NCBI RefSeq assembly: GCF_019931195.1
Contig: NZ_JAIOUO010000003.1
Location: 1-64,000, forward strand
Source of the DNA: Marinobacter sp. F4216
GTDB taxonomy: Bacteria > Pseudomonadota > Gammaproteobacteria > Pseudomonadales > Oleiphilaceae
DNA length: 64,000 nt
Reading direction: 5' to 3'
The notes under the pieces were generated by a model. That model was not told the DNA's origin, made no database searches, and saw only the letters and a program-made list of their open reading frames with translations. A program made the position numbers and the translations under genes. Positions 27,610 through 51,456 of the stretch are shown piece by piece; positions within the stretch are counted from its first letter, which is position 1; every line of letters starts with the position of its first letter.

Positions 27610-30354
27610 TCAGTAGGTGTCCTTGCCCAGCCGCTCCCGCTGCCAGTCTTTTTCCGGTTCGTTCAGCACCAGCCGCAGGTCCATAACCTCTTCTTCGTGG
27701 TTGTATTTCACCTCAAATCCCAGATGCTCCGCGAGGCTCAGCATGGGCCGGTTGTCCGGTAGCACATTGCCCACCATTTCCACCGTTCCCCGCTCCCGGC
27801 AGTAATCGATCATTTTTTGCATCAGCGTGATACCAAGACCCTCGCCTTTCATCTTGTCGTGCACCATCACAGCAAACTCGCACCGCAGGTTATCGGCGTC
27901 GGTCCAGGTGCGTACCGTACCGAGGGTTTCCTCCCCTTCCCCATCCTCCCGGGGCGCGTTGGCGATGAACACCATTTCCCGGTCGTAATCGATCTGGACC
28001 ATCTGGGCGACGTCCTCCCGGGAGAAATGCTTGCGGTACTGGAAAAACCGGTAGCGGATGGATTCCGGTGACTGGAGCTCGTGAAACACACGGTGCGCCG
28101 GCTCATCTTCCGCCAGTACAGGCCGGATAATGACCCGTCGGCCGGATTTGGGCAGCACAATCCACTCTTCCAGCTCCCTTGGGTAGGGCTGAATAATGGG
28201 TCTGCCCGCCTGATCGGACAGGTTAACCGCGGTGTTGACCGCGACCGCGCCCTGATGATTGAACAACAGGGGTGAAATCTCCAGCCCCTTGATCTCCGGG
28301 ATATCAATCACGATCTGGGACAGGGTGACCAGTGTTTCCGTCACCGCCCGGATATCTTCCTCCGGCCTCAGGCTGTGCTCCTTGAGCAGTTTGTACATGT
28401 AGGTGCGGCGGAGCAGCTCCCGGGCCAGCACCATGTTAAGCGGCGGCAGGGCAATCTGCCGGTCGGTCTTCACATTAATCTGAGCACCGGCAGCGCCGCA
28501 AACCACCAGAGGCCCAAACACCGGATCCCGGGTGATCCCCACACTGAACTCGATGCCGCCCACGTGCTGGTAGGAATACTGAACCGCAAATCCGAGGAAT
28601 CCACTGTCCGGGAAATGCAGCTGGTAATCCTCCATCAGGAAGCGACAGGCCTCGATAATGGCCTGCTCACTGTTCAGCTTCTGGATCGTACCCTTGTAGC
28701 GCCGCTGGGTCGGGCTGAGCTTGAGGAATGGATGACACACCTGCTCGTGGATAATGGAAACGTCGACGGGGCGTCGCTCTACCGCAAAAACGGCCAGTAC
28801 TTCATCCACATCGTCACAGTAGATGGTATCGACGGTACTGATGCCGTAGTCGCTGATCAGGTCCCGGGCTTCCCGGTTAGACAGGTGGTAACGACCGTCG
28901 TTCAGGGCTTTCCTGACCACCCGCCGGGTCACGCTGCGATCGATAAAATGGTCGGTAAAGGACTCCGGCGTCTCGGTTAGCAGGCGCTGCACCCGCTGAT
29001 GCCGGATGTGCTGCATGAAGGCCGTCACGGCCTTTTCCGGACTGAAGAAGGAAGGTATTCCGGCCCGGTAGAACTCTTCCCGGGAATCCATCACCGTACT
29101 TTGCCCCAGCCAGCAGGTAAACACATTAAGCCGGGTGCCCCTGGATGCATGAACCACCGCGTCAGCGATTTGCAGGTTATCCTCGGTCAGGCTCGGGGCG
29201 TACATCACCAGAACGTTGGCCACCTCCGGATCCCTGCCCAATATCTGGATGACTTTGGAGTAAAGCTCGGGCGAGGCATCGTAGTTCAGGTCAATCGGAT
29301 TCCTTCGGGTCCAGTAGGGCGGCAGCAGTTCCGCCAGCGCATCCACTGATTTTTCCGATAACTGGGCCAGTTCTCCGTCCAGATGGTCCAACCGGTCCAC
29401 TGCCAGCACCCCGGGCCCAACTCCATTGGCCATGATAACCAGCCCCTCCCGGCGCAGAGGACGCATCCGGGTCAGGGTTTCCAGGGCATCGAACATCTGC
29501 CCCAAGCCATCCACCCGCAGCACCCCGGCACGCTGCAGCATGGCGTCGTAGATCGGATCGCTTCGCGTCACGCCGGCGGGCAGGTCGTGGGGCACCCACT
29601 CGGATTCCGGCACCCGTCCGGATTTCACCGCAATCACTGGCTTGGTCCGGGAAGCCACCCGAACCGCAGACATAAACCGGCTGGGATTGGGTATATTCTC
29701 GATATGCAACAAAATCGCGCGGGTCTGGGAGTCCTGCGCGAGATAGTCGATCAGATCGTCGTGATCGATATCCATCCCGTCACCCAGCGTCAGGAAATAG
29801 GAAAAGCCGACGCCCCGGGCAAACGCCCAGTCAATGACCGAACTGGCAATGGTACCGGACTGACCAATGAAGGCGACCCGGCCGGGAATAACGCCCATGT
29901 GGGCATAGGTAGCGTTGAGATTTCGCTTGGGCACCATGACACCAATGGTGTTAGGCCCAAGCACCCGCACCCCGGTTTCCCGAGCCGCTTCGCGCACGGC
30001 ATACATCAGAGGCTGGCCGGTTTTGCTGTGGGTCCGGGACATACCACCGGTCATGACGATGGCAGTCCTAACGCCCGCCTCTCCCAATCGGCGAATCGCC
30101 TTGGCGACGGTCTCGGGCGGCGTACAGATAATGGCGAGGTCCGGAGAAAAATCCATCCGGGATACTTTTTTGACGCAGGGCACACCGTGCACGTTGTCGT
30201 AATCGTTCTGGTTAACCACCAGCAAACGCCCGGCGTATTCCCCACCCATCAGATTCCGCAACACCATACCACCGAGGCTGTCGGCCCGCTCCGAGGCACC
30301 AATAACCGCAATCGAATCAGGATTGAACAGGCTTTCCAGGTAACGGGTGCTCAA
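27610..30354 (-). CDS. Protein lysine acetyltransferase (Pat/PatZ-like): ADP-forming acyl-CoA synthetase domains plus GNAT domain
   Basis: A 914-residue protein with the PatZ architecture. It has a CoA-binding domain (SIAVIGASERADSLGGMVLRN-type start), a succinyl-CoA-ligase-like domain, an ATP-grasp domain (about 490-700) and a C-terminal GNAT domain (about 745-900, with GEGLGITLMQKMIDYCRERG). Such proteins acetylate lysines of acetyl-CoA synthetase and other enzymes; the synthetase half is usually inactive and regulatory. The start is TTG at 30354 with GGGAG upstream. It is divergent from a deacetylase-family gene across 195 bases. Confidence 0.88.
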   Translation of the reverse strand: MSTRYLESLFNPDSIAVIGASERADSLGGMVLRNLMGGEYAGRLLVVNQNDYDNVHGVPCVKKVSRMDFSPDLAIICTPPETVAKAIRRLGEAGVRTAIVMTGGMSRTHSKTGQPLMYAVREAARETGVRVLGPNTIGVMVPKRNLNATYAHMGVIPGRVAFIGQSGTIASSVIDWAFARGVGFSYFLTLGDGMDIDHDDLIDYLAQDSQTRAILLHIENIPNPSRFMSAVRVASRTKPVIAVKSGRVPESEWVPHDLPAGVTRSDPIYDAMLQRAGVLRVDGLGQMFDALETLTRMRPLRREGLVIMANGVGPGVLAVDRLDHLDGELAQLSEKSVDALAELLPPYWTRRNPIDLNYDASPELYSKVIQILGRDPEVANVLVMYAPSLTEDNLQIADAVVHASRGTRLNVFTCWLGQSTVMDSREEFYRAGIPSFFSPEKAVTAFMQHIRHQRVQRLLTETPESFTDHFIDRSVTRRVVRKALNDGRYHLSNREARDLISDYGISTVDTIYCDDVDEVLAVFAVERRPVDVSIIHEQVCHPFLKLSPTQRRYKGTIQKLNSEQAIIEACRFLMEDYQLHFPDSGFLGFAVQYSYQHVGGIEFSVGITRDPVFGPLVVCGAAGAQINVKTDRQIALPPLNMVLARELLRRTYMYKLLKEHSLRPEEDIRAVTETLVTLSQIVIDIPEIKGLEISPLLFNHQGAVAVNTAVNLSDQAGRPIIQPYPRELEEWIVLPKSGRRVIIRPVLAEDEPAHRVFHELQSPESIRYRFFQYRKHFSREDVAQMVQIDYDREMVFIANAPREDGEGEETLGTVRTWTDADNLRCEFAVMVHDKMKGEGLGITLMQKMIDYCRERGTVEMVGNVLPDNRPMLSLAEHLGFEVKYNHEEEVMDLRLVLNEPEKDWQRERLGKDTY

Positions 30355-30549
30355 GCTGGCGGTCTCCCTGCGACAAGAAATTTGGCAATAAATTCAAAGA
30401 AATACTAATACTTATGAGTTTAGCCCGATCCCGGACCAGAAACATTAACGGGGCATGACCATCCGACTACAACCAAAGAACGGGGCAGCCCCTTGCCATC
30501 CCTGATACCATGATCCAAAACAATAGCAATTACAGAGTATTGATCAGGT

Positions 30550-31476
30550 ATGACCACGGCATTTTTTTTCCACGACGATTGTTTGAAGCACAACATGGGG
30601 CCAGAACACCCGGAGTCCCCGGAACGCATCAAGGCTATTCTCAGTTTTCTGGCAGATACCAGGCTGCAACAGGAACTGGACTGGGTCCGGCCGGAAGAAA
30701 TAACCCGTGACCAATTACTATTAGTGCATCCCGAGAAATATCTGCAACAACTGGAGCTCATCGTCCCGACCCGCGGCCGGGTGTTTGTCGATCCGGACAC
30801 CGCCATCATGGCAGAGTCCCTGATGGCCGCGCGCCTTGCTGCCGGCGCCAATATTCAGGCGGTGGATATGGTCATGAGTGGCCAGGCCACCAATGCGTTC
30901 GTCTGTGCCCGACCTCCGGGACACCATGCCGAGCGCAGCCGGGCCATGGGCTTTTGCTTTTACAACAACGTTGCACTGGCCGCCATGCGTGCGCTGACCT
31001 TTCATCAGCTGGAACGGGTCGCGATCATCGATTTTGACGTACACCAGGGCAACGGAACAGCGGACATTGTCGGCGGCGACGAGCGTGTACTGATGTGCTC
31101 GAGCTTCCAGCATCCGCTCTACCCTAACTCCCACGTTTATCAACAACCGGACAATATCATTAATGTGCCGGTCGAAGCTGGCACCTCGGGTAAGGATTTC
31201 CGGAAGGTGGTTGAGGAGGGCTGGCTGAAAGCCCTTCAGGACTTCAGGCCACAGCTGGTCCTGATCTCTGCAGGATTCGATGCCCACCGGCTGGACCCGT
31301 TGGCGGAACTGAATCTGGAAACAGAGGATTACGGTTGGCTTACAGAATTGCTCACCAGTGTGGCCAGCGATCACGCCAATGACCGAATCGTGTCAACTCT
31401 GGAAGGTGGCTACAACCCTAAGGCCCTGGCCGAATGCGTCGCCCGCCACCTTGAGGTTCTGAGCTCAGTGCACTGA
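30550..31476 (+). CDS. Histone deacetylase / acetoin utilisation (AcuC) family deacetylase
   Basis: Zinc-dependent deacetylase of the HDAC superfamily. The 308-residue protein has the HPESPERI motif, the paired histidines in PPGHHAE (His125, His126), the zinc ligands Asp163 and His165 in DFDVHQGNG, and a later Asp in AGFDAH, plus the GGYN loop. In Bacillus, AcuC-type enzymes remove acetyl groups from acetyl-CoA synthetase. Divergence from a Pat-like acetyltransferase suggests protein deacetylation, but a small-molecule substrate is possible. Confidence 0.88.
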   Translation: MTTAFFFHDDCLKHNMGPEHPESPERIKAILSFLADTRLQQELDWVRPEEITRDQLLLVHPEKYLQQLELIVPTRGRVFVDPDTAIMAESLMAARLAAGANIQAVDMVMSGQATNAFVCARPPGHHAERSRAMGFCFYNNVALAAMRALTFHQLERVAIIDFDVHQGNGTADIVGGDERVLMCSSFQHPLYPNSHVYQQPDNIINVPVEAGTSGKDFRKVVEEGWLKALQDFRPQLVLISAGFDAHRLDPLAELNLETEDYGWLTELLTSVASDHANDRIVSTLEGGYNPKALAECVARHLEVLSSVH

Positions 31477-40698: not shown

Positions 40699-41970
40699 TT
40701 ACCCAAATCGTTGCGGGCTGAATGCCTCCAGAGGCAAGGCAGTCTTTTCTCCATTAATCAACTGTGCAGTGAGCTGCGCTGATGCGGCAGAGAGCGTCCA
40801 GCCAAACGTACCGTGTCCCGTATTGATAAACACGTTCGGCTCACCGGCAACACCGATGATCGGAGGGCCATCCGGGGTCATTGGGCGAAAACCTGTCCAG
40901 GGCTCGGCGGCTTTCAGGTCGGCAGCGCCGGGGAAGCGCAAATCAATAGATTTACGAAGGGTCTCCAGCCGACGCTCGGGAATCTGTCGATTGTAGCCTG
41001 CCAGTTCAACAAAACCGGTTACTCTCATGCGGTTGCCCAAACGGGTAGCAACAACCTTGTACTGGTCATCGATAACCGTCGAGCGCGGGGCCCGTTCGGG
41101 GTCGGTCAATGGTGCGGTGAGCGAATAGCCTTTGACCGGATAGCTGGGTACGCGTATGCCAAAATGCCCGGCCAGTTCATTGGAAGCGGTCCCCGCACAG
41201 AGGACAAAGGCGTCCGCAGCCAAAGGCTCTGGGGTCGCACCGGCTTTGTCGTTCAGGTTCAGCGCGCACAGCCGGCCCCGCTCTCGAACAACGCCGGTCA
41301 CTTCGGTTCCGTAAAGAAAGCGAACCCCCTCGGCCTCGCAAACTTTCGCAATGCTCTGGGTGAATCGATGGCAATCGCCGGTACCGTCCTCAGTCAAACG
41401 CAGAGCACCTTTCAGCGCTCCACTCCGAGCCATTCCGGGCTCTAATGCATAGGTTTGTTCTGCATCAAGCAGTTGGTAGCCTATGCCCATCTCATCCAGC
41501 AAAGCGGCCTTGGCCTTCAAGGCTGTCAGGCTATCCTCATTGCTCGCCAGTTCGATCAAGCCCGCGCGGTCCCCATCGAACTCGAGTTCCAAAGTATCCT
41601 CCAGGGCCTCAAAACACTCACGACTGTACACCCCAAGCCTGAGCATCGCCTTTTTATTCTCGTCGAACAGGCCGGGGGTCGTAGCATAACGCCAGGTCGC
41701 AAACAGAAACCGCAGTGTTGTCAGAGATGGCGGTTGGCGCATTTTTAGCGGGCCATCCCGCTGCATCAGCCAGGGCAGCGCCTTCTGCATCATGGCCGGT
41801 GAAGCCCAAGGATACACCGCACCATAGCTTCGCTGTCCGGCGTTCGCCCGGCTGGTTTCCAATCCCGCCTGGCCCAGGCGCTCAATGACAGTGACTGTGT
41901 GACCACGCTGGCTCAGAGCTTGGGCCGTCGTGGTCCCCACAACGCCTGCGCCAATGACCGCTATGTGCAT
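40699..41970 (-). CDS. DadA-like FAD-dependent amino acid dehydrogenase/oxidase
   Basis: A 423-residue flavoprotein of the DadA family, with the N-terminal dinucleotide motif VIGAGVVG (5-12) and the C-terminal GFRPMTPDGPPIIG and HGTFGWTLS segments. These enzymes oxidise D-amino acids or secondary amines to imino or oxo acids and pass electrons to the respiratory chain at the membrane. ATG 41970 has GGAG seven bases upstream. It is the last gene of the catabolic cluster at 40699-50354; a RidA gene nearby would hydrolyse its imine products. The natural substrate is unknown. Confidence 0.85.
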   Translation of the reverse strand: MHIAVIGAGVVGTTTAQALSQRGHTVTVIERLGQAGLETSRANAGQRSYGAVYPWASPAMMQKALPWLMQRDGPLKMRQPPSLTTLRFLFATWRYATTPGLFDENKKAMLRLGVYSRECFEALEDTLELEFDGDRAGLIELASNEDSLTALKAKAALLDEMGIGYQLLDAEQTYALEPGMARSGALKGALRLTEDGTGDCHRFTQSIAKVCEAEGVRFLYGTEVTGVVRERGRLCALNLNDKAGATPEPLAADAFVLCAGTASNELAGHFGIRVPSYPVKGYSLTAPLTDPERAPRSTVIDDQYKVVATRLGNRMRVTGFVELAGYNRQIPERRLETLRKSIDLRFPGAADLKAAEPWTGFRPMTPDGPPIIGVAGEPNVFINTGHGTFGWTLSAASAQLTAQLINGEKTALPLEAFSPQRFG

Positions 41971-42071
41971 CGCATTTACTCCCACACTGGTGAATTGGCT
42001 GTCGCTCCGATTCCTCGAACCGAAACCTTAGATCCGATGAAGCACGCCTTCAGAACATCGAAGCATCGTCA

Positions 42072-43013
42072 TCAAGAGTCACCACCCACGCTCTGCCATA
42101 CCTGGATAGCGGCGGCGAGATCTTCCAGTGAAGCGCCGACGGATTTGAACACAGTGATCGCCTCGTCACTACTGCGCCCAGGGCGCTCACCCTTTAGAAG
42201 TTGAGCCAGGTCGGACCGAATATCGGAAAAATCAAAGGCGCCTTCGTCTGCAGCCTGGAGAAGATCCCCTGCCTCACCTTTGGCGCCTGCGTACGTATCG
42301 ACAAAGACTTCGCTCCGGCGAAAACAGGCCGCGTCCGTTTCTCGCATCGTCGGTTTGAACGCTCCAACCAGGTCAAGGTGACTGCCAGCCTTAAGCCAGG
42401 AACCCTTGATCAGCGGTGCCGTTGAGAGTGTGGCGCAACTGATGATGTCCGCCGTGGAGGCAGCGGTTTGAAGATCTGTCACAATCTCGGTGTCGTACCG
42501 GTCTGCGTACTCTTCTGCCAGGGCTTTCGCTTTATCAGGATTACGCCCCCATATACGAACCTGGGTGATCGGCCGAACCGCAGCGTGTGCTTCAATCAGC
42601 ATGGGCCCAAGCTTTCCCGTGCCGACCATCAGCAAGCTGGAGGCATCTTTCCGGGCCAGTTCCCGACTGGCCAGTGCCGAGGCCGCCGCTGTGCGGCGCC
42701 GGGTCAGTTCGCTGCCATCCATACACGCCAACGGTCGGCCATGCTTACCTTCACTCAGGAAATAGACACCCGAAATAGCAGGCAAACCATGGGCAGAATT
42801 CTGCGGGAACACATTCACCATCTTCATGCCGATGTAGCCTCGCTCTTGCCAGGCTGGCATCAGTAACATGGTGGCCTCTCCGTCCTCGCGATGCATGCTG
42901 TGATGATGGCGCGGGGGGGCTTCCACTCCCTCTCGAAAAGCTTGCCCGATGCCATCAATCAGTTCGCGCCAAGATAGCGCTTCGGCAATCTGTTCGGCGT
43001 TAATAAAGCGCAT
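42072..43013 (-). CDS. Ornithine cyclodeaminase / mu-crystallin family protein
   Basis: The 313-residue protein has the family Rossmann core (LLMVGTGKLGP, VRIWGRNPDKAKALAEE) and the substrate-arginine and lysine region around GMKMVNVFPQN. Relatives include ornithine cyclodeaminase, ketimine reductase, and the EutC subfamily of ectoine degradation. The exact reaction is open. ATG 43013 lies one base before the RidA stop codon, so the two are coupled. It belongs to the cluster described for 40699-51456. Confidence 0.82.
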   Translation of the reverse strand: MRFINAEQIAEALSWRELIDGIGQAFREGVEAPPRHHHSMHREDGEATMLLMPAWQERGYIGMKMVNVFPQNSAHGLPAISGVYFLSEGKHGRPLACMDGSELTRRRTAAASALASRELARKDASSLLMVGTGKLGPMLIEAHAAVRPITQVRIWGRNPDKAKALAEEYADRYDTEIVTDLQTAASTADIISCATLSTAPLIKGSWLKAGSHLDLVGAFKPTMRETDAACFRRSEVFVDTYAGAKGEAGDLLQAADEGAFDFSDIRSDLAQLLKGERPGRSSDEAITVFKSVGASLEDLAAAIQVWQSVGGDS

Positions 43014-43014
43014 G

Positions 43015-43371
43015 TTACGCCCCCGGCAATGCGGCAATTACCATGATCTCAACTTTCCATTCGGGCTTGGCCAGTTTGGATTCCACACAGGCGCGTACGG
43101 GCGGAAGACAATCTGCGACCCAGGCATCCCAGGCAAGGTTCATCTCGGCAAACTCGGCCATGTCAGTAACCCAGATAGTGGCCGACAAAAGGTGCTGCTT
43201 ATCCGTACCAGCCTTGGCCAGCAACTGTTCAATGCCCTGCAAGATTTGTTCAGTTTGGCCACGCATATCGGCGCTGGCATCCGAAGCAACCTGGCCAGCC
43301 AGGTAAACGGTATTGCCATGAACAATGGCCTGGCTCATACGATGGTTGCTGTCGATGTAACGATCGGTCAT
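43015..43371 (-). CDS. RidA family enamine/imine deaminase
   Basis: A 118-residue RidA (YjgF) protein with the GQVASDASADM segment, the SATIWVTDMAEF strand-helix motif and the PPVRACVESKLAKPEWKVEI active-site arginine region. RidA proteins hydrolyse reactive enamine/imine intermediates of amino acid oxidation or PLP chemistry. Its place between a deacetylase and an ornithine-cyclodeaminase homologue and near a DadA-like flavoprotein fits that role. Confidence 0.9.
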   Translation of the reverse strand: MTDRYIDSNHRMSQAIVHGNTVYLAGQVASDASADMRGQTEQILQGIEQLLAKAGTDKQHLLSATIWVTDMAEFAEMNLAWDAWVADCLPPVRACVESKLAKPEWKVEIMVIAALPGA

Positions 43372-43418
43372 AAAATACTCTCTGTTGCCTGATAAATAAG
43401 AAGGTAAGGACTATCGAT

Positions 43419-44456
43419 CTAGCCCCATCGGAAGCCCTGCAAGAAGGCGGCTAAATTGTCACTGAGGCTGTCGGTCGGGTATCCACCTTCCTGAACGATC
43501 ACCTTCGGACCTTTCACCTGCGCCAGACGCTGCCCAATGCGGAAAAAGTCTTCGGTTTCCAGGGCCATCCCAGCCAGCGGATCGTCCTTGTGCGCATCGA
43601 GCCCGAGCGCGATGACAGTGGCCTGGGGTTTGAATTCGGCATGAGCAGACAGCAGTCGTGACAGTGCCTGCAGGAACGCAATGCCATCGGCACCCAGCGG
43701 CAGCGGCACATTGCAGTTGTAGCCTTTGCCGTCACCAGCCCCGACCTCTTCCGCTGCTCCCCAGTAAAACGGGTAAAAATCGGCAGGATCGACATGCACA
43801 GAACCGGTCCACACGTCAGCTCTTTCCCAGAAGATATCCTGAGTCCCATTGCCATGGTGCAGGTCGACATCGACGATGGCGACGCGTTCGTAGCCTTCCC
43901 GCAAGACGGTTGCAGCCAGCGCTGAATTATTCAGAAAACAGAACCCCCCACCCCGCTCTGGCCCGGCATGGTGGCCCGGCGGGCGACACAGAGCATAACT
44001 GACCGGTTCGCCGTCAAGCACAGCCTGCGCGGCTGCCTGTGCCGTCGTGGCACTGGCGAGAATGCCTGTGTGGCTGCCTTCGTCCATCGGACAGGCCATG
44101 TCGTGCATGTGCCAGCCGGCCTGGCCAATGATATGCCGAGGATAGAAGGTCGCGTGGCCACAGGGATGCACGTTGGGGGCAACGACCTCGGCGGCGGCTG
44201 GCAAAGCCCGCCAGCGCTCAACAACGCTCTCCAGAAAGTCGAGATAGCGGGCGGTGTGTATGCGCTTGAGTCTGTCCATCAACCGGGGGTCACTGGTCAG
44301 CGGTGGTAACAGGTTCAGACTGGCACCCGAAGCTTCAACGGCTTTTTTCAGAAGATCGGCGCGCAACGGCTGTTCGGGTGAAGGCGCCGGTTGCCCGCGC
44401 AGAAAAAAATGTTTGGGCGCGTGCAGGCCCTGCGCTTCATGATAAAAACATTTCAA
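43419..44456 (-). CDS. HDAC-superfamily deacetylase, acetylpolyamine amidohydrolase type
   Basis: The 345-residue protein has CRPPGHHAG (His162, His163), DVDLHHGNGTQDIFW (zinc ligands Asp198, His200), a later Asp in GLDAHKDDPLAG and the EGGYP loop. The N-terminal loop with PSPEQPLRADLL is longer than in AcuC types and fits acetylpolyamine amidohydrolases, which act on small N-acetylated amines. It begins at TTG 44456. The ABC ATPase gene ends 10 bases upstream, so the two share a transcript. The likely substrate is an N-acetylated amine or amino acid brought in by that transporter; this is inference. Confidence 0.85.
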   Translation of the reverse strand: MKCFYHEAQGLHAPKHFFLRGQPAPSPEQPLRADLLKKAVEASGASLNLLPPLTSDPRLMDRLKRIHTARYLDFLESVVERWRALPAAAEVVAPNVHPCGHATFYPRHIIGQAGWHMHDMACPMDEGSHTGILASATTAQAAAQAVLDGEPVSYALCRPPGHHAGPERGGGFCFLNNSALAATVLREGYERVAIVDVDLHHGNGTQDIFWERADVWTGSVHVDPADFYPFYWGAAEEVGAGDGKGYNCNVPLPLGADGIAFLQALSRLLSAHAEFKPQATVIALGLDAHKDDPLAGMALETEDFFRIGQRLAQVKGPKVIVQEGGYPTDSLSDNLAAFLQGFRWG

Positions 44457-44466
44457 AACTCACCGC

Positions 44467-45252
44467 CTATTTGTTGTTCTCAAGGTGTTTTTGCAGGAAG
44501 TTTCGCGTTCGTTCCTGATCCGGGTTACTGAACAGTTTGTCCGGTGCGCTCTCTTCAACCACGACACCGCCATCCATGAACAGGGCCCAGTCCGAAACAT
44601 CCCGCGCGAAACTCATCTCATGAGTAACGATCAGCATGGTCATATGCTCATCCGCGAGGCTGCGCATGACCTGGTTTACTTCTTCGACGAGCTCGGGGTC
44701 GAGCGCTGAGGTGGCTTCGTCAAACAGCATTACCTTGGGTTTCATCGCCAGCGCCCGCGCGATGGCAACACGCTGTTTCTGGCCACCCGACAACCAGTTC
44801 GGAAACACATCGGCTTTTTCGGCAAGGCCCACCCGTTCCAACTGTTCCATGCCCAGTTCCCGGGCCGCTTTCTTATCCATGCCCTTGAGCTTGCGGGGGG
44901 CCAGGGTGACGTTATCGATGGTCGACATGTGTGGAAACAGATTGAAATGCTGAAACACCATGCCCATGTTCTGGCGGATGTGGTTGATGTGCCGCTCAAA
45001 CGCCATGCCTTTCATGTCAGGGCGGTTAACCTGCACCCCATCGAGCAGGATAACCCCGTCGTCGATCACCTCCAGATTGTTGACCGAGCGCAACAGGGTA
45101 CTTTTGCCTGAGCCCGAAGGGCCAATGATGGAAATAATCTTGCCCCGGTCTACCGTCAGGTTGATGCCTTTTAACACCTCAAGGTTTCCGAAGCGTTTAT
45201 GGACATTACGCACCTCAACCATGGGCGTAGCGGTCTGTTGTTCTGTGCTCAT
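44467..45252 (-). CDS. Polar amino acid ABC transporter ATP-binding protein
   Basis: A 261-residue ATPase with Walker A GPSGSGKST (44-52), the LSGGQKQR signature, Walker B VMLFDEATSALD and the GlnQ/HisP-type extension (NLFPHMS). It starts with ATG after GGAGCTGTAA. With the two permeases and the binding protein upstream it forms a complete four-gene importer for a polar amino acid-like solute. Confidence 0.93.
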   Translation of the reverse strand: MSTEQQTATPMVEVRNVHKRFGNLEVLKGINLTVDRGKIISIIGPSGSGKSTLLRSVNNLEVIDDGVILLDGVQVNRPDMKGMAFERHINHIRQNMGMVFQHFNLFPHMSTIDNVTLAPRKLKGMDKKAARELGMEQLERVGLAEKADVFPNWLSGGQKQRVAIARALAMKPKVMLFDEATSALDPELVEEVNQVMRSLADEHMTMLIVTHEMSFARDVSDWALFMDGGVVVEESAPDKLFSNPDQERTRNFLQKHLENNK

Positions 45253-45290
45253 TTACAGCTCCAGCTTTATTGGCTTCTTGTTAAGTCAAC

Positions 45291-45944
45291 TCAGTGGCGA
45301 TACGAGGTTTGTCGTTCCAGCCATGCCTGCCCCAGTTCCATCACGATATTGATCACGTAATACATGGCAGCGATCACAATAAAAAATTCGAAGGGCCTGA
45401 ACGACACACTGATGGCGTATTGCGATGCGTACACCAGTTCGGCCACACCGATCGCTGACAGCACAGAGGTATCTTTGACCATCAGAATCATGTTGTTACC
45501 CAATTGCGGAATCGAACGGATAAACGCCTGTGGAACGATGATGTAAAGGATGGTTCGCCAGTGCCCGAAGCCCAGGGATCGTGAAGCTTCATACTGACCG
45601 CCCGATACGGACTTGATGGTCGTAATGAAAATATCGGCGTTGTACGCCATGTAGTGAAAGCCCAGCCCCAGGATACCCACCACGACAGCCGGTATCAGAA
45701 TCCACTCGCCTAAACCGAAGTAAAGGAAGTAGAGCTGCAGCAACAGGGGGGTGGTCATGAACAGCCAGATGAAAAAGCGCAACGGCGCGCTCACAACCTT
45801 GTTGGTATAAATGGATATAACAGCGACCACCAGTCCGCCCAGAACGGACATCAGTGCCACGGCAAGGGCCACCAGCGCGGCAACCCCAACACCCTTGAGG
45901 AGCGTGGGGAAGTACGTAATAACTGCCGAAAAATCGAACTCCAT
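45291..45944 (-). CDS. Polar amino acid ABC transporter permease (second)
   Basis: A 217-residue inner-membrane HisMQ-type permease with about five hydrophobic segments and the EAA loop (EASRSLGFGHWRTILYIIVPQAF). GGAGG precedes the ATG. It probably forms a heterodimer with the product of 45956-46618. Confidence 0.9.
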   Translation of the reverse strand: MEFDFSAVITYFPTLLKGVGVAALVALAVALMSVLGGLVVAVISIYTNKVVSAPLRFFIWLFMTTPLLLQLYFLYFGLGEWILIPAVVVGILGLGFHYMAYNADIFITTIKSVSGGQYEASRSLGFGHWRTILYIIVPQAFIRSIPQLGNNMILMVKDTSVLSAIGVAELVYASQYAISVSFRPFEFFIVIAAMYYVINIVMELGQAWLERQTSYRH

Positions 45945-45955
45945 CGCTATGCCTC

Positions 45956-46618
45956 CTACTGGGTGGTGTACCGGGTGGCCCGGCGGTAGGCCAACTCGAT
46001 GATGCCCATCACCGCGTAGATGATGACGATGTACATAAGGGCACTGAGAGTGAAGATTTCCAGCGGCTTGTAAGTGGAGCCGATCAGACGCTGGGCCTGA
46101 TAGGTCAGTTCGACCACTGAGATAATGGAAACCAGAGAGGAGTTCTTGATCAGAACGATGGCCAGGACCCCGACGGAACGGATCATCAGGCTGGCGGCCT
46201 GCGGCAGGACGATGTAGAACATGGTTTGCGCACGGCCAAATCCCAGGGATCGGGCTGCTTCGGTTTGTCCGTTGTCGACGGACTCAATGGATCCCCGAAT
46301 CGCTTCACTCATGTAGGCGCCAATATTGAACGCGCCAACAACGACGCCACAGGTGACGGGGTCCAACCGCAAGCCAATACTCGGACCGCCGTAAAACACC
46401 AGGAGCAACTGCACGAAATACGGTGTCCCCCGTACGATGCTTACGTATCCACGGGCAAACCAGCGAATGGGCGCAAACCGCAAGGTCTGTAAAAACACCA
46501 GCCCGCAGGCAACAAAGAACCCGAAGAAAATCGCGCGGGAAGAAATATCAATCGTAACCCAGGCCGCCCTGATCAACAGGGGGGTAACCTCGACCATTAA
46601 ATCAAAGTCCATGGTCAT
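45956..46618 (-). CDS. Polar amino acid ABC transporter permease (first)
   Basis: A 220-residue HisMQ-type permease with about five hydrophobic segments and the EAA loop (EAARSLGFGRAQTMFYIVLP). ATG 46618 or the second in-frame ATG at 46612, which has AAGGG at a better distance, could be the start. It ends 11 bases before the second permease gene. Confidence 0.9.
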   Translation of the reverse strand: MTMDFDLMVEVTPLLIRAAWVTIDISSRAIFFGFFVACGLVFLQTLRFAPIRWFARGYVSIVRGTPYFVQLLLVFYGGPSIGLRLDPVTCGVVVGAFNIGAYMSEAIRGSIESVDNGQTEAARSLGFGRAQTMFYIVLPQAASLMIRSVGVLAIVLIKNSSLVSIISVVELTYQAQRLIGSTYKPLEIFTLSALMYIVIIYAVMGIIELAYRRATRYTTQ

Positions 46619-46656
46619 CCCTTGTTCTGTTGTTATTCAAATCTTTTATCTGAAGG

Positions 46657-46683
46657 CAACCCGGCCAGGAAAGGGCCGGGTTG
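46657..46683 (-). terminator. Intercistronic hairpin between the binding protein and permease genes
   Basis: CAACCCGGCC (46657-46666) pairs perfectly with GGCCGGGTTG (46674-46683) around a 7-base loop. No U-tract follows on the minus strand. Such hairpins often protect the 3' end of binding-protein mRNA or partly terminate transcription, so the binding protein is made in excess over the membrane parts. Confidence 0.55.
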
Positions 46684-46701
46684 TGACTCACGGTCCAGTC
46701 C

Positions 46702-47505
46702 TTACTCGATGTTGGCACCTTCGCCGATCCACTTATCGACAATCGCCTGATAAGTGCCATCCGCCTTGATTTCTGCCAAAGCCTTATTCAAGGCTTCCAT
46801 CAGTTCTGGCTTGTTCTTCTGAATGGAAATGGCTGCAGGCCAGCGTGGCAGGTCACCCACGTCGACCATCTTGATGGCTGGTGCATTTTTCTGCATTGCC
46901 ACCAGCACCGGAACGTCGTCCGCAATCATTACATCGATGCGGCCCGTGGTAAGGGCATTCATCATATCCGGCAGGCCCTGGAAGGTCTGGTTCGTCCATT
47001 CGCCTTCACCATTTTCAACGGCCCACTGATTACCGGTTTCCCCGAGCGTGGAGCCAACGCGCTTGCCAGAAAAGTCGTCGATGCTGCTGATGTCGTCGGT
47101 GCCCTCCTGCACCCAAACCGAAAGGCCTGAGCTGTAGTAGGAATCCGTGAAGGCCACCGCCTTCTTCCGTTCCTCTGTCACGCTCATGCTGCAGATACAG
47201 GCATCAAACCTTCCACCCGCAAGAGCCGCGATAATTCCATTCCACGGAGAGGACTGTACGTTGACTTCCACGCCCATTTTCTCGGCCAGGGCTTCGGCAA
47301 TATCAACGTCGAAACCGACCAGTTCACCCTGGGTGTTCACGAAGCTGAACGGAGGATAGGCGCCAGAGTTGGCCACCTGAAATACGCTTTCCCGAATCTC
47401 AGGCAGGTCACGCGCCTGAGTGGGCATGGCCACCATCAGGGTTGCGCCGATGGCTACGGCTGCGGTCGCCATAGTTTTGGAGAACTTTTTGATGTGTAAC
47501 TTCAT
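46702..47505 (-). CDS. Polar amino acid ABC transporter substrate-binding protein
   Basis: A 267-residue family 3 periplasmic binding protein. It has a signal peptide cleaved near residue 31-32 (AMPTQA), the YPPFSFVNTQGELVGFDVDIAEAL ligand motif, and the CICSMSVTEERKKAVAFTDSYY hinge. A CIC pair of cysteines is present. ATG 47505 follows AAGGAATAGGG. Ligand specificity cannot be read from sequence; neighbours suggest an amino acid or acylated diamino acid. Confidence 0.9.
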   Translation of the reverse strand: MKLHIKKFSKTMATAAVAIGATLMVAMPTQARDLPEIRESVFQVANSGAYPPFSFVNTQGELVGFDVDIAEALAEKMGVEVNVQSSPWNGIIAALAGGRFDACICSMSVTEERKKAVAFTDSYYSSGLSVWVQEGTDDISSIDDFSGKRVGSTLGETGNQWAVENGEGEWTNQTFQGLPDMMNALTTGRIDVMIADDVPVLVAMQKNAPAIKMVDVGDLPRWPAAISIQKNKPELMEALNKALAEIKADGTYQAIVDKWIGEGANIE

Positions 47506-47672
47506 ATCCCTATTCCTTATTAGACGTTTATCAAAACATGCATAGTTCCATGCACTTAACTACTTCACACTGCTTAATGACCATTTCTGTTGGGCCCGAA
47601 TCGATCGCAGTTATCCATCCGGATTCGTTATTGTTATTTGTGATGGTTTGTAACTTGATCACCTCCCGCCAA

Positions 47673-48332
47673 TCATTCCCCGTGTTGTTCCTCACCACTT
47701 TCAATTGCAAAGATCAGTGCTGCTTCAGTCTTTGCCTGCAAGTCTGCATCGCTGATGTCTGCCAGCTTTTCCCGCACAACCAGACCCCGGTTGGTAACGT
47801 CGATGACAGCCAACTCTGAAATAATTCGGCTGACACAGGCTTTGGCTGTGAGGGGCAAACGGCAGGTTTCCAGTATTTTCGGGCGACCGTGTTTGTCGGT
47901 ATGGGTGGTGAGCACGACGATGCGCTTTGTTTTTTGTGCCAGTTCCATGGCTCCACCGATACCCGGAGAGAACCTGCCCGGAATTTTCCAGTTGGCGAGA
48001 TTGCCGTGTGCATCGACTTCAAAGGCTCCAATCATCGTCAGGTCCACCCGAGCCCGACGAATCATCGCGAAGGACACGGCACTGTCGAACAAACTCGCAC
48101 CCTCGCGTAACGAGACGTAGGCGCCAGACGCGTCAATAAGGAAAGGGTCCATCGACTCCGGTTCGGCCTGCTTCCAGGCACCGAGAATGCCGTTCTCCGA
48201 ATGGATCTGGACATCAAAGTCATCCGGCAGGTAATGCATGACTTTGGTCGGCAACCCTATGCCCAGATTCACAATGCTGCCGGGGGTAATCTCGAGCACC
48301 GCCCTGCGCAAAATGCGCTCAACGTCGGACAT
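47673..48332 (-). CDS. 3-oxoacid CoA-transferase, subunit B
   Basis: A 219-residue beta subunit of a family I CoA-transferase (AtoA/ScoB-like). The catalytic Glu46 is in the SENGILG motif; a GIGLPT loop and a GGAMELAQ-like helix follow. ATG 48332 has GGAG five bases upstream and overlaps the subunit A gene by 14 bases. It would transfer CoA from succinyl-CoA or acetyl-CoA to a 3-oxo acid. The 167-base gap to the binding-protein gene is A/T-rich and may contain a second promoter. Confidence 0.87.
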   Translation of the reverse strand: MSDVERILRRAVLEITPGSIVNLGIGLPTKVMHYLPDDFDVQIHSENGILGAWKQAEPESMDPFLIDASGAYVSLREGASLFDSAVSFAMIRRARVDLTMIGAFEVDAHGNLANWKIPGRFSPGIGGAMELAQKTKRIVVLTTHTDKHGRPKILETCRLPLTAKACVSRIISELAVIDVTNRGLVVREKLADISDADLQAKTEAALIFAIESGEEQHGE

Positions 48333-49014
48333 GATGCTCCAGTATTCCGTAGTCTGAGGTGAGTGATTCCAGTTGCACGACACTGTCGACAAAGGCTCCC
48401 GGTGTGTGAACCTGCTCCGGGCTGAACCGCCCAGGGGCCCCCAGATCCGGTGTTTCAACAATCACGTGGTCCGCCGCCATAGCCATGAGCGGACTGAAGT
48501 TAATGGCAGAGCCCTGATAAACCAGGTTGCCCAGCCAGTCGGCCTGAGCCGCATGAATAAGTGCAAAATCGGCTCGAAGCGCCATCTCAACTTTGTAGGT
48601 TTTTCCCTGCCAATCGAGCAGATCGTCAGGGCGGGTGATCTCGGAGTGGATACCAATATCGGTCAAAAAACCAAAGCTGCCGGCCCCGGCGGTGCGGATC
48701 TTTTCCGCGAGAATACCCTGGGGGTGAAACGCCACCTCTATCTCACCCTGGTTGAACCGATCGATCACGTTTTTATTCAGGCCAATGTGCGTGGTGATCA
48801 GCTTTCGAACCTGGCCATTCTCGATCAGTCGGCTCACGCCATGACTGGCCTCGTTGGCATCGTTCTTGATGAGCGTCAGGTTGGTTTGCCCCTGGCGCAG
48901 TAATTCATTGATCAGGCTGAATGGTGTGCCCGGATTGCCGAAACCACCCACCATGATGACCGCACCCGAGGGGATCGAAGCGATGGCGCTTTCGAGGGTG
49001 CGGTTCTTCTTCAT
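48319..49014 (-). CDS. 3-oxoacid CoA-transferase, subunit A
   Basis: A 231-residue alpha subunit (AtoD/ScoA-like) with the GGFGNPGTP loop and the LALIHAAQADWLGNLVYQGS-type segment (ALIHAAQADWLGN). ATG 49014 overlaps the aminotransferase stop codon (ATGA), so aminotransferase, subunit A and subunit B are translated as a coupled set. This links a transamination that yields a keto acid directly to its activation as a CoA thioester. Confidence 0.88.
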   Translation of the reverse strand: MKKNRTLESAIASIPSGAVIMVGGFGNPGTPFSLINELLRQGQTNLTLIKNDANEASHGVSRLIENGQVRKLITTHIGLNKNVIDRFNQGEIEVAFHPQGILAEKIRTAGAGSFGFLTDIGIHSEITRPDDLLDWQGKTYKVEMALRADFALIHAAQADWLGNLVYQGSAINFSPLMAMAADHVIVETPDLGAPGRFSPEQVHTPGAFVDSVVQLESLTSDYGILEHHVRR

Positions 49015-50354
49015 GACCAGGCCACCTGCTCTTTTGCGATCTGTTCGAAGTCCGCCAGGCTGAGGTCGAACAGAGCAATAATGGCGTCGATATCGTCGGT
49101 GGTAACCGTCAATGGCGGTGTGATCAGAACATGATCCCCCGCCAGGCCGTCCAGGCAACGTCGCGGATAGATCAGCAAGCCCCGCTCCTTTGCTAACGCT
49201 GTAATCCGTTCGAAGGCGTTGAATTCGGGAGGAAAACTTTGCCTGGTCAGCTTGTCTTGCACCAGCTCCACACCCTGTAACAGGCCAATACCCCGCACAT
49301 TGCCTACGCAGCTGTATTTCTCGGCCAGCTGCTTGAGTCGCTGGCGTAAATAGAAGCCTTGTTCAGCGGCGTTGCTGACCAGATTCTCCGAGTCCATCAC
49401 CTCAATCACCGCAAGGCCGGTGGCGCAGGCAAGCGGGTTTCCGGCATAGGTATGGCCATGCATAAAGCCGCCGCCGCGGCCCACGGCATCCACCAGTTCC
49501 TGACGCGCCATCATGGCAGCAATGGGGTAATAGCCGGAGCCAAGCCCCTTTGCCAGTGCAAGAATGTCCGGTGCTACGCCATAGTGCTGGTAAGCAAACC
49601 AGGCACCGGTACGCCCCATACCGCTGAGCACTTCATCCATGATCAGCAGGCAACCATACCGGTCACACAGGGCGCGCAACCCTTCCATGTAACTTCGGGT
49701 GAACATACGGCCACCGGTGCTGGCACCGCCGACAGGCTCAACAACAATAGCGGCGACAGTTTCCGGGCCAGCGGCCTCAATGGCACGCTCAGTCTGTTCG
49801 AGCACCACGGCAATATGCTCTTCAACGTTGGCCTCACGAAAACGATACAAGTCTGGCGAGGGCACCTTGACTGAGCCTATGGTGGCCGAACGGTAGGGTG
49901 CTTCCAGCGGTTCATACCCGGTCAACCCCAGTGCGCCCAGCGTGCTGCCGTGATACGACGGGCGCAACGACACGAACTTGCTACGCTCAGGCTGACCTTC
50001 AACAAGGAAATACTGGACCGCCAGTTTGATGGCGCTCTCGACAGCTTCCGAACCACTGCCCACAAAAAACACTTTCTGAAGATCAGCGTCCGTCCTTTCA
50101 ACCAGCTTATTCGCCAGATCCAGCGCAACCTGGCTTTCAAACTGGGTTCGGTAGGTGAACGCAACCTTGTCGAGTTGCTCGACCATGGCGCGTTTTACGG
50201 TGGGATGATTGTGGCCAATATTGCAGGTGATGGCTCCGGAGCAGCCATCAATATAACGACGTCCGTCAGTATCCCAGAGGTAGATACCGTCGGCGTGGCT
50301 GACCAGGGGCATGTCTTTAGTGGTCAGGTAGAACAACGCATTGCTGCTGGGCAT
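49011..50354 (-). CDS. Class III (omega/beta-type) aminotransferase
   Basis: A 447-residue PLP enzyme with GSEAVESAIK, EPVGGAST, DEVLSGMGRTG and the PLP lysine Lys269 in ALAKGLGSG. Class III members act on omega-amino, beta-amino or diamino acids. First gene of the leftward cluster and coupled to the CoA-transferase, which fits transamination of a beta-amino acid to a 3-oxo acid. Substrate assignment is inference. Confidence 0.9.
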   Translation of the reverse strand: MPSSNALFYLTTKDMPLVSHADGIYLWDTDGRRYIDGCSGAITCNIGHNHPTVKRAMVEQLDKVAFTYRTQFESQVALDLANKLVERTDADLQKVFFVGSGSEAVESAIKLAVQYFLVEGQPERSKFVSLRPSYHGSTLGALGLTGYEPLEAPYRSATIGSVKVPSPDLYRFREANVEEHIAVVLEQTERAIEAAGPETVAAIVVEPVGGASTGGRMFTRSYMEGLRALCDRYGCLLIMDEVLSGMGRTGAWFAYQHYGVAPDILALAKGLGSGYYPIAAMMARQELVDAVGRGGGFMHGHTYAGNPLACATGLAVIEVMDSENLVSNAAEQGFYLRQRLKQLAEKYSCVGNVRGIGLLQGVELVQDKLTRQSFPPEFNAFERITALAKERGLLIYPRRCLDGLAGDHVLITPPLTVTTDDIDAIIALFDLSLADFEQIAKEQVAWS

Positions 50355-50435
50355 CGAATCGCCGATCCTTCTGCAAAAAACGATGTTTTTTTGTTCAAAT
50401 CCAAAGCCATAGGATCAGTTCTATAAACTAATTGC

Positions 50436-50456
50436 AATGCATGATATTTTTGCATT
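50436..50456. promoter_or_regulatory. Candidate LysR-regulator operator
   Basis: AATGCA (50436-50441) and TGCATT (50451-50456) form a perfect inverted repeat with a 9-base A/T-rich spacer, giving the T-N11-A pattern that LysR-type regulators prefer. It lies between the divergent aminotransferase and LysR genes, 82 bases from the former and 59 from the latter. Confidence 0.5.
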
Positions 50457-50514
50457 ACTTGATGATTTCTACTCATATATTAACTAAAACAAGACGCCCG
50501 CAAGGCTTGCCATC

Positions 50515-51456
50515 ATGAGCGACATCAACCTGACCTCCCTGAAATCGTTACTGATTTTCAAAAGGCTGTACGAAACGGGCAACGCGACACAAACAGCAAA
50601 AGATCTGGGGATCACCCAGTCCGGTGTCAGCCGATCACTCGCCCAGCTAGAAGAAAACATTGGCTTTGCGCTGTTCATGCGGCATAAGAAACGGTTGATT
50701 GTTCTGCCCGAGGCCGATGAGCTTTATGGGGAAATCCTGGGGTTAGTGAGCAATCTCGAAAACATGAATCACAGCATCGTGGCGTTGAGGGAATTCGGTG
50801 CCTCGCGCATACGTATCGCCTGTGCCCCCAGCCTCGGTTTTGACTACGTTCCCAAAACCATTGCACGCATTCTGAGCGATAATCCGAAGTACAGTGTGTA
50901 CCTGGACATCATGCCCAGCCCGGAAATTGTGCGCGCCGTTGAAGCCGGCAACTTTGACGTCGGATTCGTCACTCTGCCAGTGACCACCGAAGCGTTGGTC
51001 GTCGATGAATTCATCTCAACCGAAGCGGTTTGCCTGATACCCAGAAACCACAGCCTGGCGAGGGCCAGTGTGGTGACCACCGACGACCTCAAAGGCCAGC
51101 ATCTGGTTATCCCGAACCAGCCCAACCTGGCTGCCGACCAGCTACTGGTGCACCTGTCAGAAAGAAACATACACATTGCCGGCAAGACCGAGGCCAACAT
51201 CTCGGCCATATGCTCACTGGTTGCAAACGGTGTCGGTATCACGCTGATCAATCCCATCACCGCCTACGATCATCAGGCCATGCATGCCGGGCTCCTGATG
51301 AAACCGTTCAAGCCAGCCATCCATTTCCGCTTCGCTCTGGTGTACAAACAGAAGTGGGCGAACAACCGGTTAATCAGCCTGCTCAAGGAAATGCTGCCGG
51401 ATTTGCCGGATCACCGTGTGGCCGAAAGACATAACCGAGGCTGCGACATAACCTGA
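50515..51456 (+). CDS. LysR-type transcriptional regulator
   Basis: A 313-residue LTTR with an N-terminal winged helix-turn-helix (LKSLLIFKRLYETGNATQTA then DLGITQSGVSRSLAQLEENI) and a type 2 periplasmic-binding-like effector domain (about 90-295). It is divergent from the aminotransferase at the head of the catabolic cluster, so it probably regulates that cluster in response to its substrate. Confidence 0.9.
   Translation: MSDINLTSLKSLLIFKRLYETGNATQTAKDLGITQSGVSRSLAQLEENIGFALFMRHKKRLIVLPEADELYGEILGLVSNLENMNHSIVALREFGASRIRIACAPSLGFDYVPKTIARILSDNPKYSVYLDIMPSPEIVRAVEAGNFDVGFVTLPVTTEALVVDEFISTEAVCLIPRNHSLARASVVTTDDLKGQHLVIPNQPNLAADQLLVHLSERNIHIAGKTEANISAICSLVANGVGITLINPITAYDHQAMHAGLLMKPFKPAIHFRFALVYKQKWANNRLISLLKEMLPDLPDHRVAERHNRGCDIT

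Follow-up and report, generated by a model that had tools for sequence, protein, structure and literature searches.

In the window, that is the complete stretch of 64,000 nucleotides from Marinobacter sp. F4216 that was analysed, a gene for a large acetyltransferase and a gene for a deacetylase are divergently oriented and separated by a gap of 195 bp. The initial annotation had described them as a PatZ-like acetyltransferase and a deacetylase of the HDAC family, and open reading frames, Pfam matches and an alignment with the PDB chain 9it0 bore out the positions, the orientation and both family assignments. The locus contains the following features:

27610-30354, minus strand: gene of a predicted Pat/PatZ-type protein lysine acetyltransferase (Pat) of 914 amino acids with a TTG start (ORF, Pfam, PDB alignment)
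27712-28137, minus strand: C-terminal GNAT acetyltransferase domain of Pat, residues 740-881 (Pfam)
28219-28911, minus strand: ATP-grasp_5 domain of Pat, residues 482-712 (Pfam)
29473-29886, minus strand: Succ_CoA_lig domain of Pat, residues 157-294 (Pfam)
29932-30315, minus strand: CoA_binding_2 domain of Pat, residues 14-141 (Pfam)
30355-30549, no strand: divergent intergenic region of 195 bp with blocks conserved across Marinobacter (alignment of loci)
30468-30480, plus strand: TACAACCAAAGAA, the window version of the block aTaaGACcAAAGAAA, like the left half of the ACTU/CrbR motif and not significant in the window
30499-30507, plus strand: TCCCTGATA, upstream of the HDAC gene and kept in more than 90% of 79 Marinobacter loci
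30550-31476, plus strand: gene of an HDAC-family Zn-dependent deacetylase of 308 amino acids, predicted to be class II/HdaH-like (Pfam, PDB search, fold search)
30922-30927, plus strand: catalytic tandem His125-His126 (RPPGHH) of the deacetylase (alignment)

The acetyltransferase comprises the full domain set of the Pat/PatZ type, in which the GNAT domain comes after the CoA-binding, Succ-CoA-ligase-like and ATP-grasp domains, and AGGGAG as ribosome-binding site is located directly 5' of its TTG start. It could be aligned from end to end (E 2.4e-178) with 9it0, a chain of 886 amino acids entitled 'Protein acetyltransferase', which we take to be PatZ of E. coli. In this alignment Glu826 corresponds to residue E809 of 9it0, presumably the catalytic Glu of PatZ, and Glu826 was invariant in 17 of the 17 HDAC-paired Pat proteins compared. 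The ligase part is modified: Leu258 occupies the position at which ADP-forming acyl-CoA synthetases have the catalytic alpha-His (SHTG motif), which rules out the window protein as a functional ADP-forming acyl-CoA synthetase, and Ser533 replaces the ATP-grasp 'ALK/VMK' lysine of its relatives. Due to the loss of these catalytic residues the ligase-like part of Pat is probably a sensor or a scaffold. The SHTG/THTG His and the ATP-grasp Lys of active acyl-CoA synthetases are retained in several HDAC-paired Pat proteins outside Marinobacter (L130, L131, L132, L135, L142 and L144), and for this reason some of these may be bifunctional.

The Hist_deacetyl model (PF00850) matched nearly the whole length of the deacetylase with 298.6 bits. 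All classical features of Zn-dependent HDACs are present, consisting of the tandem His, the zinc site D163/H165/D244 and the GGY tyrosine Tyr288, and an alignment of 24 relatives revealed that H125, H126, D163, H165, D244 and Y288 are invariant. The protein also contains RPPGHH, GFC and EGGY, which are the motifs of robust deacetylases in a survey of classical deacylases of bacteria from 2024 (PMC11532494). Among solved chains 5ji5 of Burkholderia phymatum came closest with 46% identity, ahead of HDAC6 and HdaH enzymes, and the first class I chain (clr6) appeared only at rank 60 among the PDB matches. A fold search with the AlphaFold model (pLDDT 94.8) likewise identified 5ji5 as the best match (TM 0.97), then HDAH of P. 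aeruginosa and HDAC6. No function was found for 5ji5, the entry title of which gives the HDAC superfamily only. Judged by sequence and by predicted fold, the deacetylase is class II/HdaH-like. From the label 'HDAC/AcuC-type' of the initial annotation the family could be retained and the AcuC type had to be given up: the PDB ranks and the fold search, both made against chains other than AcuC itself, led to the rejection of an AcuC or class I-like HDAC (cluster 2).

The gatekeeper residue of the deacetylase is Leu251 within a PLA motif, and Leu or Met is located at this position in 24 relatives. Polyamine activity is tied to a Glu gatekeeper (PEG; HDAC10) or to a PIS motif (bacterial ApaH, cluster 4) (PMC11532494). 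With PLA and Leu251 in place of Glu or PIS, the sequence does not match a polyamine deacetylase of the HDAC10 or cluster 4 kind, and by this sequence criterion the gatekeeper would favour acyl-lysine over acetylpolyamine as substrate. The genome encodes three further HDAC-family proteins, of which two have ApaH-like sequences. A second HDAC-family gene in the window, ApaH-like by sequence, is found at 43419-44456 on the minus strand within a cluster extending from 40699 to 51456. The companions in this cluster are a D-amino-acid dehydrogenase-like oxidoreductase, a Delta1-pyrroline/piperideine-2-carboxylate reductase, a Lys/Arg/Orn-type ABC transporter, 3-oxoacid CoA-transferase subunits, a class III aminotransferase and a LysR regulator, and the cluster may serve the catabolism of acetylated lysine or of a diamine.

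The proposal of the initial annotation implied that the pairing is conserved in related genomes, and a survey at three taxonomic levels demonstrated this conservation. Within the genus, pat and the HDAC gene were divergent neighbours in 60 of the 60 Marinobacter genomes having the genes, and the sole genome without either gene is 62% complete. Three of the genomes counted among the pairs (G036, G055 and G035) contain split or truncated pat matches; in G036 and G055, single-contig assemblies with about 6% contamination, the match lies in two pieces, probably as a result of sequencing frameshifts. The sample of the order comprised 145 genomes, and at the cut-offs used 26 genomes outside Marinobacter had both genes. 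Adjacency, defined as a distance within 1 kb, was seen in 17 of these, with 14 pairs in divergent and 3 in convergent orientation. From the class 274 genomes were drawn; outside Marinobacter both genes were present in 44 and adjacent within 1 kb in 20 (15 divergent, 1 convergent and 4 on the same strand). The adjacency expected by chance after random placement in a 3-Mb genome is well under 1%. In the other classes of Pseudomonadota both genes occurred in 31 sampled genomes and were adjacent in a single one (G678). The Pat-HDAC module is mainly gamma-proteobacterial.

Inspection of 100 HDAC loci outside Marinobacter, comprising all adjacent pairs and most of the remainder, revealed Pat within 1 kb at 52 loci, with fifteen of these Pat matches below the first cut-off. 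Many genomes contain the HDAC gene without an adjacent Pat, and a search for recurring other neighbours at such loci yielded none that was informative. On the tree of the deacetylase the paired state requires 17 changes compared with 35.8 in shuffles; it is clustered yet scattered over the family, which indicates that the pairing was repeatedly lost or gained. RdgC, PyrC, YaaA and RNase T, four of the neighbours in the window, were searched at the same 100 loci, and RdgC alone was detected, at one locus. The association of Pat and HDAC is independent of neighbours and orientation.

At two loci the deacetylase gene adjoins another type of GNAT protein. At L187 (G338) a lone GNAT of about 190 amino acids is encoded divergently, and at L175 (G201) a fusion of an acetyl-CoA hydrolase/transferase with a GNAT domain adjoins the HDAC gene on the same strand (L175:144-2012). 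The GNAT domains of both partners resemble that of Pat, and these two cases are suggestive of GNAT activity as the constant part of the pairing. As the pairing persists outside Marinobacter in three orientations, with changing neighbours and with differing GNAT partners, the writer/eraser pairing put forward by the initial annotation is well supported.

The spacer between pat and the HDAC gene contains three blocks which are conserved in most of the 79 Marinobacter loci. In its minus-strand reading the block TATCTTA...gATGTaAAa is similar to a sigma-70 promoter of pat; the remaining two are aTaaGACcAAAGAAA and TCCCTGATAa. A scan of positions 30300-30600 for consensus promoters and terminators identified none. 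The shared control region that had been postulated for the locus is supported in part only: it is backed by the conservation of the blocks across Marinobacter and weakened by the pat promoter block, which is degenerate in the window genome. Moreover, the convergent and same-strand layouts in other genomes indicate that a shared promoter is not what holds the genes together. Using the ACTU/CrbR motif list from PMC5715377, the block aTaaGACcAAAGAAA was found to resemble one ACTU half. The ACTU score of the window pat-HDAC region was 8.0 bits compared with 9.4 bits for the 95th percentile of shuffled DNA; a few Marinobacter species exceed 12 bits in this spacer, and most are not clearly above shuffled DNA. 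Since the score of the window stays within the range of shuffled DNA, a common control of pat-HDAC and acs by CrbR is only a lead. The acs promoters themselves, 29 of the 29 Marinobacter promoters examined, contain a strongly conserved TAGGACGTTAGTCTAAT or a close version of it, which scores as an ACTU/CrbR site with the full inverted repeat and suggests CrbS/R control of acetate use in Marinobacter.

Comparable systems are known from three bacteria. The PatZ/CobB system of E. coli is similar in its writer, as the Marinobacter Pat is homologous over the full length to 9it0, taken here as PatZ, and keeps the catalytic Glu. In contrast, the eraser in E. coli is the sirtuin CobB, and an HDAC-type deacetylase is not known from this organism according to PMC6640162. 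In B. subtilis AcuA and AcuC act on AcsA (PMC8556138), and the acuABC/acsA region shares with the locus described here that acetyltransferase and HDAC-family genes lie together, their products being opposed on a protein lysine in B. subtilis (PMC8556138) and predicted to be so in Marinobacter. In B. subtilis, however, the writer AcuA is a GNAT of small size and AcuC belongs to the class I-like HDACs (cluster 2c), whereas in Marinobacter the writer is a Pat of 914 amino acids, the eraser is predicted to be class II/HdaH-like, the genes are divergent and acs is located elsewhere. In R. palustris the substrates of RpPat, the HDAC-family enzyme LdaA and the sirtuin SrtN comprise Acs as well as further acyl-CoA synthetases (PMC6640162); the likeness consists in a Pat-type writer, an HDAC-family eraser and a sirtuin, with LdaA likened by family and role.

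The analysis established the identity of the two genes, the intact state of their catalytic residues and the conserved association. The best explanation, which we consider quite likely, is that Pat and the deacetylase form an antagonistic writer/eraser pair acting on protein lysines. We infer that the CoA-ligase-like domains of Pat, having lost the ligase residues, would sense the acyl-CoA status and that the GNAT domain would acetylate lysines of target proteins. Independently of NAD+, the class II/HdaH-like deacetylase would use zinc and water to hydrolyse the acetyl-lysine of these shared substrates and would thereby restore the targets. The likeliest targets would be AMP-forming acyl-CoA synthetases, with Acs in the first place; in other bacteria acetylation of the catalytic lysine inactivates enzymes of this type.

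The genome encodes one Acs above the TIGR02188 cut-off, which contains the sequence PKTRSGKIMRR with the PKTRSGK motif, and its gene is located on contig C5, away from the pat-HDAC locus. Two sirtuins are encoded as well, which rules out the HDAC as the sole possible eraser, and these sirtuins could also deacetylate Acs. The characterised class II HdaH enzymes of sub-cluster 1b did not deacetylate AcsA-K549Ac from B. subtilis (PMC11532494), a result that calls for real caution with regard to Acs. Acs is a plausible main target of the pair, with the chances about even.

The pair could also act on protein lysines with a main acyl group or main targets other than acetyl-Acs: the acyl groups might be longer, and the targets might be further acyl-CoA synthetases, transcription factors or Pat. 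AMP-ligase relatives are numerous in the window genome (18 matches to the Acs model), about ten acyl-CoA synthetases are substrates of Pat and LdaA in R. palustris (PMC6640162), and the sirtuins are at hand for Acs. Nevertheless, the canonical motif is present in Acs, and RPP and EGGY, which accompany deacetylase activity and not long-chain deacylases (PMC11532494), fit a deacetylase, so that we regard this variant as rather unlikely. Less probable still is that acetylated polyamines or some other small amide are the substrate of the deacetylase and that its adjacency to pat reflects a shared acetyl-CoA or acetate physiology instead of shared substrates. Some bacterial HDAC-family enzymes are indeed polyamine deacetylases, hydrolases of propanil and dimethoate are found among the class II-like enzymes of sub-cluster 1b, and the proteobacterial sub-clusters 1c and 1d, annotated as ApaH, lie outside the assayed set of the survey (PMC11532494). 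We consider such a function improbable in view of the Leu/Met gatekeeper, which is neither Glu nor PIS, of the best fold match to 5ji5 ahead of HdaH and HDAC6, of the steady partnership with a Pat-type GNAT and of the three other HDAC-family proteins, two of them ApaH-like, which are likelier candidates for this role. Inert synteny inherited from an ancestor is very improbable: the stable gene order within Marinobacter is by itself little informative, but the genes flanking the pair in the window were not found at 99 of the 100 loci outside the genus and the orientation varies while the pair persists.

For the antagonistic pair on protein lysines, the idea of a writer/eraser locus as such is already known from acuABC. 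A conserved gamma-proteobacterial Pat-HDAC gene pair was not described in the open-access literature searched; most subscription papers lay outside this search, and the novelty of the pairing is therefore provisional. The discussion of enzymatic lysine acetylation in gamma-proteobacteria has mostly dealt with Pat and the NAD-dependent sirtuin CobB, and to our knowledge physiological substrates have been assigned to few bacterial HDAC-family enzymes. The conserved Pat-HDAC pair assigns a writer to a specific eraser, which makes the substrate question directly testable. Tentatively, the gamma-proteobacterial module may be a dedicated one in which an HDAC subfamily evolves as the fixed eraser of a GNAT writer and the sensor domain of the writer can be exchanged (of acyl-CoA ligase-like or CoA-hydrolase/transferase-like kind, or missing); we see this generalisation as possible, at somewhat less than even chances. 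If true, such a module would provide these bacteria with an NAD-independent switch beside the sirtuins.
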